From the IMG/VR virus record IMGVR_UViG_3300024259_000158, positions 1 through 23,048 of that record: DNA of 23,048 nucleotides; one strand, 5' to 3'. The first letter of the stretch is position 1. Each line of letters begins with the position of its first letter. This document shows positions 7,314-12,377 of the stretch, in pieces. Made by a program: the position numbers and the translations under genes. A model generated the notes under the pieces. The model searched no databases and had not been told where the DNA came from. It saw nothing but the letters and a program-made list of their open reading frames with translations. The DNA is from a virus.

Positions 7314-7640
7314 ATGGAGAATAAGATCAAAGCCCTTATGGCATGCGGCGTTGAGCCAGCTAAGATTGCTATGATCTTAGACATGACACACGGGCAATTG
7401 ATGCAGAGATACGGGAAAGCCATTGCTACAGCGGAAGCTGAGGCTAATGCCGGTGTTGCACAGACATTATATAAAATGGCAACAAGCGGTAAGCATCCAC
7501 AAGCATCAATCTTTTGGCTTAAAGCACGTGCTGGCTGGGATGATAAGTCTGAGCTTATTGAACAATTACTTGATCACAATACACCAAGGGAAGAGATCCT
7601 CAAGCGGATCAAAGAACTTGAGACTGGGGCTGTTCACTAA
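7314..7640 (+). CDS. Small terminase-like protein, second of tandem pair (108 aa)
   Basis: ATG 7314 follows the upstream TAG directly, with GGAAGGA just before it. The protein begins with a helix-turn-helix-like segment (ALMACGVEPAKIAMILDMTHGQLMQRYG, residues 8-35), then a helix with alternating Ala/Glu, and the motif GKHPQASIFWLKARAGWDDK (about 63-82), which I associate with small terminase/DNA-packaging proteins. The C-terminal helix TPREEILKRIKELE could contact the large subunit. It ends in TGAVH, coded by a 20-nt segment repeated at the end of the next gene, and its stop overlaps the next ATG (TAATG). Of the pair it is the better small-terminase candidate. Confidence 0.7.
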   Translation: MENKIKALMACGVEPAKIAMILDMTHGQLMQRYGKAIATAEAEANAGVAQTLYKMATSGKHPQASIFWLKARAGWDDKSELIEQLLDHNTPREEILKRIKELETGAVH

Positions 7641-7642
7641 TG
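7623..7642 (+). repeat. Junction direct repeat, copy 1
   Basis: ACTGGGGCTGTTCACTAATG covers the last codons, the stop and the overlapping start codon at the junction of two genes. A copy differing at one base lies at 8801-8820, at the next junction. Bases outside the 20 nt differ, so the repeat is sharply bounded. Confidence 0.85.
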
Positions 7643-8818
7643 CCAACGGCAGAAGACTTTTATGGCGTAGACCCAACACTAATGCATGGTGTTGAGAGCT
7701 ATCCATCTGATGAGGCTATCGAGAAAGCTAATCGCTACCTATTAGATCAGGCACAGCTAGGTGTTGCAGAAGGGCTTACTTGGCCAATGATGCTGGCAGA
7801 CATTCCCCATATGGTATCTGAGCAGACTCTTGAGATGCCATTGTTTGAAAAGGCATCAAGGGGAGTTGCAGAGAAGATCGGATATGAGGATTTTGAGCCA
7901 CCAGGCGGCATGGCAGGAGAGACTGTTAAGCCGTTTGCTAACATAGCAAGATTAGGCACATCCATCCCTGGCCCTGTTACCCAATTCAAAGCGGCAAAAT
8001 CTGGCATTGGTGCACTTACAAAGGGCATCCAGGATACTACATATGGCAACTTGCCAGTTGAATCACGGAGAGCCTTCCTTAAAGGTATGGGCTACACAAG
8101 TGCTGCAGCTGCCACTGGTATTGCAGGCCTCAAGGTTGCCAAGCACATATCTGACTTACCATCGGTAAAAGCTGTTCCAAAGATGTCTTTGTCAAAAGCA
8201 AGACAGGCTTGGTGGAATCAGAACCCAGAGCGAAGTAAGTTCATCTCTAGTAAAATGCAAGATTATTTGCAGGATATTGCAGAACAAGACCTCTCTAAGT
8301 TTGGCCCAAAGGTTGAAAAGCTCTTTGAGCAGAGTGATGCCGCTCACGATCTTGGTAATGATCTCTACATGCAGGTCAACAAGTCTGCAGCAGACCTAAA
8401 GACATTAGGCAAAAGTGTTGGCCATAATGCGCCTGAATACCTACAGGCAAAGGCCAAGCATGATAGGCTTTGGAAGCAATATCAAGATAATGGCAATCTA
8501 ATCAATGAAATTGATGGTGCCATCCTACGTGACATGCCTGAAGATGTATTTGCTAAGCAACATGCGCAACATCAAAAGGCTGCTGCAAAAGCTGAGCAGG
8601 ATTATGAATGGCATGTTGCCAGGAAGGCTGAGCAGGACTCATTGGACTATTTTGGCCCAAACCGCATCTTTGGTGAGGATGTACATTCGGCAAGACGATA
8701 TGCAGATGATGCAAAAGACGAAGCGTATAAATTTGAGCAGAATATGGTCAAAGGCTTTGGAAAGGATCGTGATGATTATGCCAGGGCGCTACAAGATAAA
8801 ACTGGAGCTGTTCACTAA
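7640..8818 (+). CDS. Unknown phage protein with internal Tat-like motif, 392 aa
   Basis: This protein lies between the small and large terminase genes, a place usually free of long genes. Residues 1-140 are mixed helical with Pro/Gly loops. Residues 142-148 read SRRAFLK, an exact match to the twin-arginine export consensus, followed by a mildly hydrophobic Ala/Gly segment (YTSAAAATGIAGLKVA, 152-167). This is internal, not N-terminal, and no Met lies just before it, so true Tat export is doubtful. Residues 185-390 are long, highly charged helices rich in Ala, Lys, Asp and Gln, probably coiled coil. The gene overlaps both neighbours by one stop/start base, and both junctions carry the same 20-nt repeat. 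An injected or internal virion protein is one inference; the family is not recognised. Confidence 0.7.
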   Translation: MPTAEDFYGVDPTLMHGVESYPSDEAIEKANRYLLDQAQLGVAEGLTWPMMLADIPHMVSEQTLEMPLFEKASRGVAEKIGYEDFEPPGGMAGETVKPFANIARLGTSIPGPVTQFKAAKSGIGALTKGIQDTTYGNLPVESRRAFLKGMGYTSAAAATGIAGLKVAKHISDLPSVKAVPKMSLSKARQAWWNQNPERSKFISSKMQDYLQDIAEQDLSKFGPKVEKLFEQSDAAHDLGNDLYMQVNKSAADLKTLGKSVGHNAPEYLQAKAKHDRLWKQYQDNGNLINEIDGAILRDMPEDVFAKQHAQHQKAAAKAEQDYEWHVARKAEQDSLDYFGPNRIFGEDVHSARRYADDAKDEAYKFEQNMVKGFGKDRDDYARALQDKTGAVH

Positions 8819-8820
8819 TG
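8801..8820 (+). repeat. Junction direct repeat, copy 2
   Basis: ACTGGAGCTGTTCACTAATG matches copy 1 at 7623-7642 in 19 of 20 bases. It encodes the same C-terminal TGAVH, stop and overlapping ATG. The two copies are 1178 bp apart and bracket exactly one gene. Confidence 0.85.
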
Positions 8821-10857
8821 TCGCCATTGCTACTCGCCCGTTCAGCTGCTATACCAAAACCTCCTGTAACTGGGCAGTCTGATGCACCCGAACTATCGGC
8901 AGCAGATTTCTGGGAGGAGCTAGGCAACCTATCACCAGTTCACAATATGTTGTCAGTTGGCAAGGACTTCTATGAGGATTGGCTAGAGCATGAGAGGCAA
9001 AGGGGCAATTATCCAACGCCAGAGCAGAAAGAGAATGCTAAGAAAAGCCTTGGTGGTGAGCACCAAGGTGTCCCAATGCCTGGCAATGTCAAGGATAAGC
9101 TGAAGGACCCCGGTATGAGATCAGTTGCCAATGGTGTATCTGCACCAGATGACTCTGGCTTTGTTGATGCTAAACCTGATATCTACAGCGGTACCTTTCT
9201 GCCACAGGAGGCATATAGCACGGAGTCATTGCCGCAGGATCATACTATCGGTGCATATAGCAATCCAGCGTCTAATGGCATTGAGGATCTAACATACGGC
9301 AATCCATTCCCCACTGATGCGCCTGATACATCAATCATGCATATTATCAAGGAGAAAGGTGGCAACTGGGTAGAGGGTGCAGTTGAGTTAGGGACAGATA
9401 ACCTCAAATACAATTATTCCCTCTGGCTCCCAACAGATAATGGTTTTGAGCCAGAGGGAATAGCAGAGATCCAATATGAGGCAGAGGTATATAATACAAT
9501 TGGTGAGCAGTTGATAGCACAGAGAAACTCACTGAGAACACTACATAATCTTCAAAATGAGGATGATGGCTTTGACTGGTCAGATGAAATTGATGACTTG
9601 AAGGAAATGATTGCTAACAATGAGAGCAAATCTGAGTGGAATGACTGGGTTGAGACAAAACTCAACAAGTATATCAAGACCAGTATGGGGACTCAAGCAG
9701 ACCCGGTTCGTAAACGCATTAAAGAGACTGGCATGACACATATACAGAGCCTTGATGATGTATATAGCGCAGCAGTAGAGGACAACACCGATCTCGACCT
9801 AGATCCTGAAGATCAGCTGGAATATAGAAGAGAACAGCTAGGATACGATTTCTATGGGTCAGAGGCACCCGATAGCCCAGAGAGCAAGTGGGAGTACCTG
9901 TCTGATGATGCCTTTGCCAAAAGCAGTGCATCAGAGCAAGTCAATCGGTTCTCACCAGACTGGATGAAGAAGCTACCAGGAGATACCATATTCCATGATC
10001 TCTATACCGGCGTTTTGTCATCACTAGGGTTTGGTCATGTGCGTGATGAAATTGCAAATACAATGAGACCTGACTCTGGGCTTCCAGCTAATTTGCAGAT
10101 TAGACCAGGCAAGCTCGGCAAGATGTCAGTGCCAGATGTCCTACAGCGTGTGGCAGATATTAATGAGTGGCGATCTTTGAATCTGGCTGAGGCAGATAAG
10201 CAGAAGGCATTCAATAGAGCAACACACCCGATTGAAGAACTGCAATATGATGATTATGGCTGGGTTGAGCTTGCAGATAAAGGGCTAACGATGTCCGACT
10301 TGCAAGGAGGCATTGACCCGCTTCAGGTTGCCCTTGAGTATGAAGGCGACACAATGGGGCATTGCGTAGGGGGTTATTGTGGTAAGGTACGTGGTGGAAC
10401 AAAGATATACTCACTTCGGGACAGCGAAGGTGGTCCGCATACAACCATTGAAGGCCATGACAAGGATGGCACCCTGATGATTACGCAGATTAAGGGGAAA
10501 CAGAATAATAAGCCAAAGCCTGAGTATGTTGAGATGGTCCAGGACTTTATTTACAATCAGGATGATGTTGAATTTGCAGTAGGCTATAACATTGATGCTG
10601 GTGTTGGTGATCACCTCAATGCAGATATGGTAATGCTTGACTCCGACTCAGTTGATGCCTTTGAGCGATCTCCGGAGAGCCGCAATGCCATCATCAAGTT
10701 GGCAAGAGAATATGACGATAGCCTTGTTGATGATATATCGGCATCATACATAGCAGATGAAGTGGCCAATGAGTTGTTAAAGAGCGGCAAAAAATATGCT
10801 ACATTTAATGATGTCAGGAAGGCCATTGAAAAGGTAGACAGGGACACTCGCATCTAA
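8818..10857 (+). CDS. Large polyvalent-like protein with PcfJ-like C-terminal domain, 679 aa
   Basis: The first 400 residues are acidic, Pro/Gly/Asn-rich and low in recognisable motifs, with helical stretches near 215-290. The C-terminal part carries GDTMGHCVGGYC (about residues 510-521), then KIYSLRDSEGGPHTTIEG and TQIKGKQN (about 556-563). This series (HCVG.Y, SLRD, H.TIE, Q.KGK.N) resembles the PcfJ-like domain known from conjugative plasmids and from large multi-domain phage proteins. The biochemical role of that domain is not established to my knowledge. His515, Cys516 and Cys521 are potential metal or active-site residues. The ATG overlaps the previous stop, and the TAA overlaps the large terminase ATG, so it is co-translated with the packaging genes. 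Delivery with the genome or protection of phage DNA are hypotheses only. Confidence 0.7.
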   Translation: MSPLLLARSAAIPKPPVTGQSDAPELSAADFWEELGNLSPVHNMLSVGKDFYEDWLEHERQRGNYPTPEQKENAKKSLGGEHQGVPMPGNVKDKLKDPGMRSVANGVSAPDDSGFVDAKPDIYSGTFLPQEAYSTESLPQDHTIGAYSNPASNGIEDLTYGNPFPTDAPDTSIMHIIKEKGGNWVEGAVELGTDNLKYNYSLWLPTDNGFEPEGIAEIQYEAEVYNTIGEQLIAQRNSLRTLHNLQNEDDGFDWSDEIDDLKEMIANNESKSEWNDWVETKLNKYIKTSMGTQADPVRKRIKETGMTHIQSLDDVYSAAVEDNTDLDLDPEDQLEYRREQLGYDFYGSEAPDSPESKWEYLSDDAFAKSSASEQVNRFSPDWMKKLPGDTIFHDLYTGVLSSLGFGHVRDEIANTMRPDSGLPANLQIRPGKLGKMSVPDVLQRVADINEWRSLNLAEADKQKAFNRATHPIEELQYDDYGWVELADKGLTMSDLQGGIDPLQVALEYEGDTMGHCVGGYCGKVRGGTKIYSLRDSEGGPHTTIEGHDKDGTLMITQIKGKQNNKPKPEYVEMVQDFIYNQDDVEFAVGYNIDAGVGDHLNADMVMLDSDSVDAFERSPESRNAIIKLAREYDDSLVDDISASYIADEVANELLKSGKKYATFNDVRKAIEKVDRDTRI

Positions 10858-12377
10858 TGCAGACTGATCTCTCAAAATTCTCTGACGAGCAGCTGCATGA
10901 GTACCTGAATCTCAAAGAGCTGCTTTCTGAACAAGAGGTAATAACAAACGCAAGAGAGTCATTCCTTGGCTTTGTTGAGTTCATGTACCCAGATTTCATA
11001 TTCGGGAATCACCATAAGTCAATGGCTGACAACTTTGAAAAAGTTGCATCCAAGGAGCTTAAGCGAATAATTCTGAACTGCCCACCAAGACACTCAAAAT
11101 CACTATTAACATCACAATATCTACCTGCATGGTTAATTGGCAAAGACCCAAAGATGAAACTGATGTCAATCACACATACCACTGATCTTGCTGTTCACTT
11201 TGGCAGGACTGTGCGTGATATCATTCAGTCAGACCAGTATACAAAGGTATTCCCCAATACCACTGTTCGCGCAGATAGCAAGTCTGCTGGTAAGTGGCAA
11301 ACAAACGCAGGCGGCGAATTTTTCGCAGCAGGTGTCGGTGCTTCAGTTACTGGTCGTGGTGCTGACCTTCTCATTCTTGATGACCCTCACTCTGAGCAAG
11401 ATCTGCTCTCACCTAATGCCTTTGAGAATGCATGGGCCTACTACTCTGCTGGTCCAAGACAGCGACTACAGCCAGGTGGCACCATTATTGTAGTACAGAC
11501 AAGGTGGTCAACAGAAGATATCACTGGTCATCTTCTTGAAGAGCAGGCTAAATCCGATGACGCTGATCAATGGGAGCTGATTGAGTACCCTGCAATATTA
11601 CCATCTGGCAAGCCATTGTGGCCTGAGTTCTGGAATATTGATGAGCTAAAAGCAGTGAAGGCATCATTATTCCCACAGAACTGGTCTGCACAATGGCTGC
11701 AGCAACCAGCATCTGACGAGGCATCAATCCTCAAGCGAGGGTATTGGTCAAGATGGAGTAATGATACGCCACCTAAGTGTACTGATATCATCATGTCAAT
11801 GGACACAGCGTTTCAGGCTAAGGAGCTTGCCGACTATTCGGTAATTACAACCTGGGGAGTTTTTTACCCAGACGGTGAATATACAATCGGTAGTGGTGAA
11901 AGTGCGAGAACAAGGAACTTTGATGGGACAGAAGCCAACATTATGCTGCTGGATAGAGTCCGTGGGCAGTTTGACTTTCCAACCCTCAAGAAAAAAGCCT
12001 TTACTGCTTGGACAGATTGGAACCCCGACTCAACTATTATTGAGAATAAGGCTTCAGGGCAATCCCTTATTCAAGAGTTCAGACATCAGGGAATCCCAGT
12101 CCAAGGCTTCACACCCAATAAAGGACAAGACAAGGTTGTCAGAGCAAACTCGGTAGCTGATATATTCTATGAGGGCAAAGTTTGGGCACCTAATGAGTGG
12201 TGGGCTGATGAACTCATAGATGAGTGCCATGGCTTCCCATTTTCCTGTAAGAATGATGATCAGGTGGATTCAACAGTCATGGCAATGCTCAAGTTCCGTA
12301 GATCTGGCTACATCCAGCTCAAGAAAGACTGGAAGGATGAGCTTGGTAAGAGCTGGAAGACAAAAAATTATTATTGA
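10857..12377 (+). CDS. terL: Terminase large subunit (packaging ATPase/nuclease)
   Basis: This 506-aa protein pumps DNA into the prohead and cuts it. The ATPase half shows the phage-type Walker A CPPRHSKS (residues 75-82), a Walker B strand LLILDDPHS (171-179) with Asp175-Asp176, and the coupling-type segment VVQTRWSTEDITG (212-224). The nuclease half has the RNase H-like acidic triad: Asp316 in IMSMDTAF, Glu396 in STIIENKASG and Asp471 (or Asp467/468) in NDDQVDSTVMAM. Its length is normal for the family and all key residues are present. The ATG overlaps the stop of the upstream large protein. An insertion-like loop (SGESARTRNFDG, about 346-357) lies within the nuclease half. It acts at the portal vertex with the small subunit and the portal encoded next to it. 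Confidence 0.97.
   Translation: MQTDLSKFSDEQLHEYLNLKELLSEQEVITNARESFLGFVEFMYPDFIFGNHHKSMADNFEKVASKELKRIILNCPPRHSKSLLTSQYLPAWLIGKDPKMKLMSITHTTDLAVHFGRTVRDIIQSDQYTKVFPNTTVRADSKSAGKWQTNAGGEFFAAGVGASVTGRGADLLILDDPHSEQDLLSPNAFENAWAYYSAGPRQRLQPGGTIIVVQTRWSTEDITGHLLEEQAKSDDADQWELIEYPAILPSGKPLWPEFWNIDELKAVKASLFPQNWSAQWLQQPASDEASILKRGYWSRWSNDTPPKCTDIIMSMDTAFQAKELADYSVITTWGVFYPDGEYTIGSGESARTRNFDGTEANIMLLDRVRGQFDFPTLKKKAFTAWTDWNPDSTIIENKASGQSLIQEFRHQGIPVQGFTPNKGQDKVVRANSVADIFYEGKVWAPNEWWADELIDECHGFPFSCKNDDQVDSTVMAMLKFRRSGYIQLKKDWKDELGKSWKTKNYY

Follow-up and report, generated by a model that had tools for sequence, protein, structure and literature searches.

How did two adjacent genes in the packaging operon of this virus come to end in nearly the same 20 nt, and does the likeness mark a place where genes are exchanged? 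The window, by which we mean the whole stretch of DNA that was analysed, is the entire virus record of 23,048 bases. The operon comprises genes for a 126-aa protein, the terminase small subunit (TerS), a 392-aa ORFan, a 679-aa PcfJ-like protein, the terminase large subunit (TerL), the portal, a GroES-like protein, a 327-aa protein and the major head protein. The first-pass annotation had placed the repeat-bordered gene between the terminase subunits; it does lie in the TerS–TerL interval, but the 679-aa PcfJ-like gene separates it from TerL. The features used below are as follows.

7314..7640, + strand: TerS (terminase small subunit), 108 aa (phrog_309, E 2.9e-07); left wall of the slot
7623..7642, + strand: repeat copy 1, at the border of TerS and the 392-aa gene
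7640..8818, + strand: 392-aa slot gene, an ORFan, with the motif GIQDTTYGN at residues 129-137
8024..8050, + strand: motif codons (GIQDTTYGN) of the 392-aa protein
8801..8820, + strand: repeat copy 2, at the border of the 392-aa and 679-aa genes; strain L003 departs from the window inside it, between ACTGGAGCT and ATTCAATGATG
8818..10857, + strand: 679-aa PcfJ-like slot gene (PF14284, E 8.6e-09)
9277..9303, + strand: motif codons (GIEDLTYGN) of the 679-aa protein
10857..12377, + strand: TerL (terminase large subunit), 506 aa (phrog_38, E 1e-95); right wall of the slot
L003:475, L005:2191, L006:9585: motif sites in the relatives

Copy 1 of the repeat (ACTGGGGCTGTTCACTAATG, 7623-7642) ends TerS, and copy 2 (ACTGGAGCTGTTCACTAATG, 8801-8820) ends the 392-aa gene. 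The repeat proved to be as first described: the copies agree at 19 of 20 bases at these positions, and a comparison of their flanks revealed no similarity beyond the 20 nt. Both copies are read in the same register, encoding T-G-A-V-H-stop at the ends of the 108-aa (7314-7640) and 392-aa (7640-8818) proteins, with a TAATG in which the stop overlaps the next ATG; the lone mismatch is a synonymous GGG/GGA change. No other non-tandem pair of 20-mers in the whole 23,048-nt window has at least 19 identities, and in shuffled sequence 0 matches are expected at three or fewer mismatches. Given the same peptide and the codon use of this phage, the probability that at least five of the six codons would be identical is about 0.03. 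The match is thus probably one of DNA, beyond a common protein ending, and at the DNA level the extra gene ends in a copy of the preceding gene's 3' end.

The TerS tail suggests which copy came first. TerS of the window ends in ELETGAVH, and its homologues in two relatives end in ELESTAEIH (L005) and ELESSSRVH (L006). Since the tails finish in [IV]H across all three lineages, this ending appears native to TerS, and the copy that ends the 392-aa gene is the likely newcomer.

The 392-aa protein has no Pfam match above the cut-off, no convincing PHROGs match and no phage match, and nothing credible was found in the viral contigs, phages or genomes searched. The one genome match, in Thalassospira, is apparently due to chance, its frame being antisense to a transporter gene, and a TAT-signal-like match was set aside as internal and below the cut-off. 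Predicted structures of this protein and of the 169-aa protein described below had mean pLDDT values of 48 and 44, too poor for folds to be compared.

A search with TerL yielded five informative contigs (L003–L007). Strain L003 and the window share 99.91% identity over an 11,518-bp segment that begins exactly at the TerL ATG (L003 position 593, window position 10857). The first 74 nt of L003 correspond to the end of the 392-aa gene (window positions 8749-8822), and the three mismatches between them all fall within repeat copy 2; the last 22 codons of that gene are present. Between these two segments, a 178-codon ORF with a DUF6973 domain (Pfam) stands in place of the 679-aa gene, to which it is unrelated. 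In this near-identical strain, a DUF6973 gene has cleanly replaced the PcfJ gene, the left breakpoint falling inside repeat copy 2 and the right one at the TerL ATG, where there is no repeat. The 392-aa gene ends in ACTGGAGCTATTCAATGATG in L003 versus ACTGGAGCTGTTCACTAATG in the window, so that its protein finishes in TGAIQ rather than TGAVH. L003 begins only 52 nt ahead of its repeat copy, and the TerS border falls outside the contig. L004, 99.87% identical to the window, has kept the 679-aa gene.

The 392-aa gene is absent from the other three contigs, which are about 70% identical to the window in DNA and are thus not near-identical strains. In L005 (TerL 79%), TerS is followed by a 750-aa PcfJ homologue, 36% identical to the 679-aa protein, and then by TerL. 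In L006 and L007, one unrelated 169-aa gene lies between TerS and TerL; the L006 protein carries HEYEH, an instance of HExxH spotted by eye. Each of these three contigs has one slot gene and a single junction, with no second copy at fewer than 7 mismatches. A relative in which TerS joins the PcfJ gene directly had been suggested as a check, and L005 has that gene order; its junction is homologous in position and reading only, with TerS ending in STAEIH, and is not the same 20 nt. No second junction copy is present in L005, L006 or L003, where the next best candidates have 6-7 mismatches (L003 stops short of TerS). Of the genomes compared, the window alone has a duplicated junction, and it is there that TerS is followed by the extra 392-aa gene. 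In L005 and L006 an 87-aa gene (L005:916-1179, L006:8885-9148) separates the 126-aa homologue from TerS; it is absent in the window, where the 126-aa gene directly adjoins TerS.

Wider searches added little. Exact-repeat scans of viral contigs yielded only L003, and a strain carrying these 20 nt just once was not found; nor was there a near-identical strain lacking the 392-aa gene among the viral contigs. A TerL scan of GTDB returned nothing, and an alignment scan with PcfJ gave zero matches, missing even the known homologue in L005, so that its empty result carries no information. The TerS scan recovered only one further, distant phage (L048:1122-3012), in which homologues of the 126-aa protein and TerS lie directly before a different TerL-like gene, with no slot gene. 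PcfJ-like sequences also occur elsewhere: directly after TerL, not before it, in phage DSL-LC04 (L042:5345-7822), and some 3 kb beyond TerL in both L052 and L054.

Close relatives therefore show four arrangements of the TerS–TerL interval, made up from four unrelated gene families, and one of these arrangements occurs in a genome that shares 99.9% identity with the window. Unrelated genes occupy one place between conserved neighbours; the slot is real and is active on the time scale of strains. This bears out the modular slot in the packaging operon that had been proposed, with one change of extent: the repeats do bracket only the 392-aa gene, but the slot is wider, extending from the stop of TerS as far as the ATG of TerL.

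A sister clade of nine contigs (L009-L017; TerL about 51%) has a different feature at this place. There, a run of 10-11 A immediately precedes the stop codon of the gene upstream of the slot (e.g., L010:8168, L017:2232, L014:1125), and in seven of the nine contigs another frame is open after the run up to TerL, over 25-610 codons. The products of this alternative frame have variable middles, and the longer ones that were read share a conserved tail (...EKQIDKIIRDDQS); two of these products have no Pfam domain above the cut-off. They may be fusions made by slippage, with swappable modules at the same place.

What, then, is the repeat? We favor the reading that the interval between the TerS stop and the TerL ATG is a swappable cargo slot and that the 20-nt repeat is a recombination scar of gene exchange, with a probability of roughly 0.7. 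Whole genes would be gained, lost or swapped in the slot, mostly as units that begin at their ATG and end with a stop codon overlapping or touching the following start; an incoming gene that keeps these borders would preserve translational coupling. In the ancestor, TerS would have ended in the 20-nt sequence with the PcfJ-like gene directly after it, as in L005. In a donor genome, the 392-aa gene would have had a similar end of its own (compare the L003 form above) and would have been followed by another gene. A single crossover within the common ACTGGRGCT...TTCA stretch would then put the 392-aa gene after TerS and ahead of the PcfJ gene, and leave it flanked by two copies of the junction sequence. 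This history is the simplest, since one exchange would yield the gene order of the window and both repeat copies at once.

The crossover through this microhomology, and its direction, are what we infer, the scans having turned up no genome in which these 20 nt occur once; an exchange inside the repeat, as earlier proposed, is thus the best reading and not a demonstrated fact. Besides this result and the L003 contig's stopping short of TerS, three points count against it. For homologous recombination, 20 bp is a short length. The TerL border of the swap has no repeat, and gene-border exchange in this slot thus needs none. Finally, the repeat holds a GGRG stretch resembling a ribosome-binding site about 10 nt before the ATG, so that selection for translation initiation could preserve part of the likeness.

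The proteins encoded in the slot share a short motif, [GS][IL]xDxTY, present in all five of them (392, 679, 750, 177 and 169 aa). These represent four families with no other clear similarity, the 750-aa protein being the homologue of the 679-aa one. The versions are GIQDTTYGN, GIEDLTYGN, SIADTTYEN, GLEDVTYDD and GIEDTTYIY. In a profile built from the five, they scored 29.9-34.9; the next best score among about 470,000 residues of ORFs from the window and the fetched loci was 14.3, and no other ORF in that set contained the motif. When one family at a time was left out, the best-scoring stretch of the omitted protein still fell at the motif, at about 0.001-0.003 per protein. The motif was first noticed by eye, which fixed the alignment; leaving families out lessens this bias and does not remove it. 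A second short likeness, EKGGxW, outscored the motif in two pairs (the 679-aa and the 750-aa versus the 177-aa protein). When viral contigs were scanned with a DNA pattern for one strict version of the motif, no further contig was found. The motif codons differ between the proteins, so that the motif is not a product of recent DNA copying.

What might the motif do? The interval might be a standing cargo bay, in which [GS][IL]xDxTYxN is a signal for capsid loading or proteolytic release and any gene so tagged can be swapped at the TerS and TerL borders. We consider this proposal tentative and rather doubtful. Our guess, that the motif would mark proteins ejected along with the DNA for loading or processing, accords with the role predicted for the polyvalent-type proteins of phages with portal and terminase. 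Among candidate effector-type domains, Pfam gave PcfJ and DUF6973, HExxH was seen by eye only, and the 392-aa protein had none. Our inference for the slot proteins is a role as virion-carried or early effectors with a common GIxDTTYGN tag.

An unlikely alternative is that the repeat is a conserved element for ribosome binding and stop/start coupling, selected at each coupled border. Each overlapping ATG does have GGGG or GGAG about 10 nt ahead of it, and GGAG is retained at the L003 junction though the rest of the tail differs. However, a ribosome-binding site requires a purine stretch and a spacing, not 19 of 20 bases; the other coupled starts in the window (7314 and 10857) lack the sequence, and the TerS junctions of L005 and L006 are different throughout. 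We think it less probable still that TGAVH is a functional C-terminal tail, the DNA match being its consequence. The [IV]H ending of TerS in three lineages fits such a tail, but the codon identity would be improbable from a shared peptide (about 0.03, as above), the 392-aa protein of the near-identical L003 ends in TGAIQ, and the slot proteins of L005, L006 and L003 have no such tail. Least probable of all is delivery of the 392-aa gene by a mobile element, through homing or transposition with the repeat as a target-site duplication: direct repeats do surround exactly one extra gene, but no Pfam family, whether nuclease, recombinase or any other, matches its protein above the cut-off, the PcfJ gene was swapped in the same slot with no such repeat on its right side, and the G+C content of the gene (0.458) is like that of its neighbors (0.453 and 0.461).

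The favored reading, a recombination scar, has counterparts in mycobacteriophages. In phage Island3, genes 67 and 68 (gp67/gp68) have a common 60-bp 3' end that is single in phage Brujita (PMC3029335). As here, the extra gene ends in a repeat of the preceding gene's 3' end at both protein and DNA level, and the two genomes also differ by the replacement of a neighboring gene at its borders. The Island3 repeat is longer (about 50-60 bp versus 20 bp), Brujita is a near-identical single-copy genome whereas the single-copy relative here is more distant, and the site in the window, unlike theirs, is the terminase operon (PMC3029335). In phage LRRHood a short direct repeat (29 bp) likewise borders added DNA and occurs once in relatives, but the insert is 1.35 kb with four genes, including a phage repressor (PMC3029335).

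For the proposed cargo, the closest comparison is with phage polyvalent proteins and their solo domains, which are tied to packaging through portal and terminase; the prediction is that they enter the capsid and are injected, and they include zincin-like HExxH domains (PMC5512222). HEYEH, which the L006 slot protein carries, has this HExxH form. Unlike polyvalent proteins, the slot proteins are smaller and encoded by separate genes, and PcfJ has 0 occurrences in that paper (PMC5512222).

Mosaicism of this sort is ordinary in kind, and the repeat is most likely a neat example of the type of crossover scar known from mycobacteriophages (PMC3029335). The locus offers a natural strain-level snapshot of a whole-gene swap inside an essential operon, made without breaking it and with a breakpoint within a 20-nt junction. 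The motif is the part most deserving of attention: should it prove to be a tag for loading or processing, it would provide a sequence handle on ejected phage effectors that otherwise share nothing.
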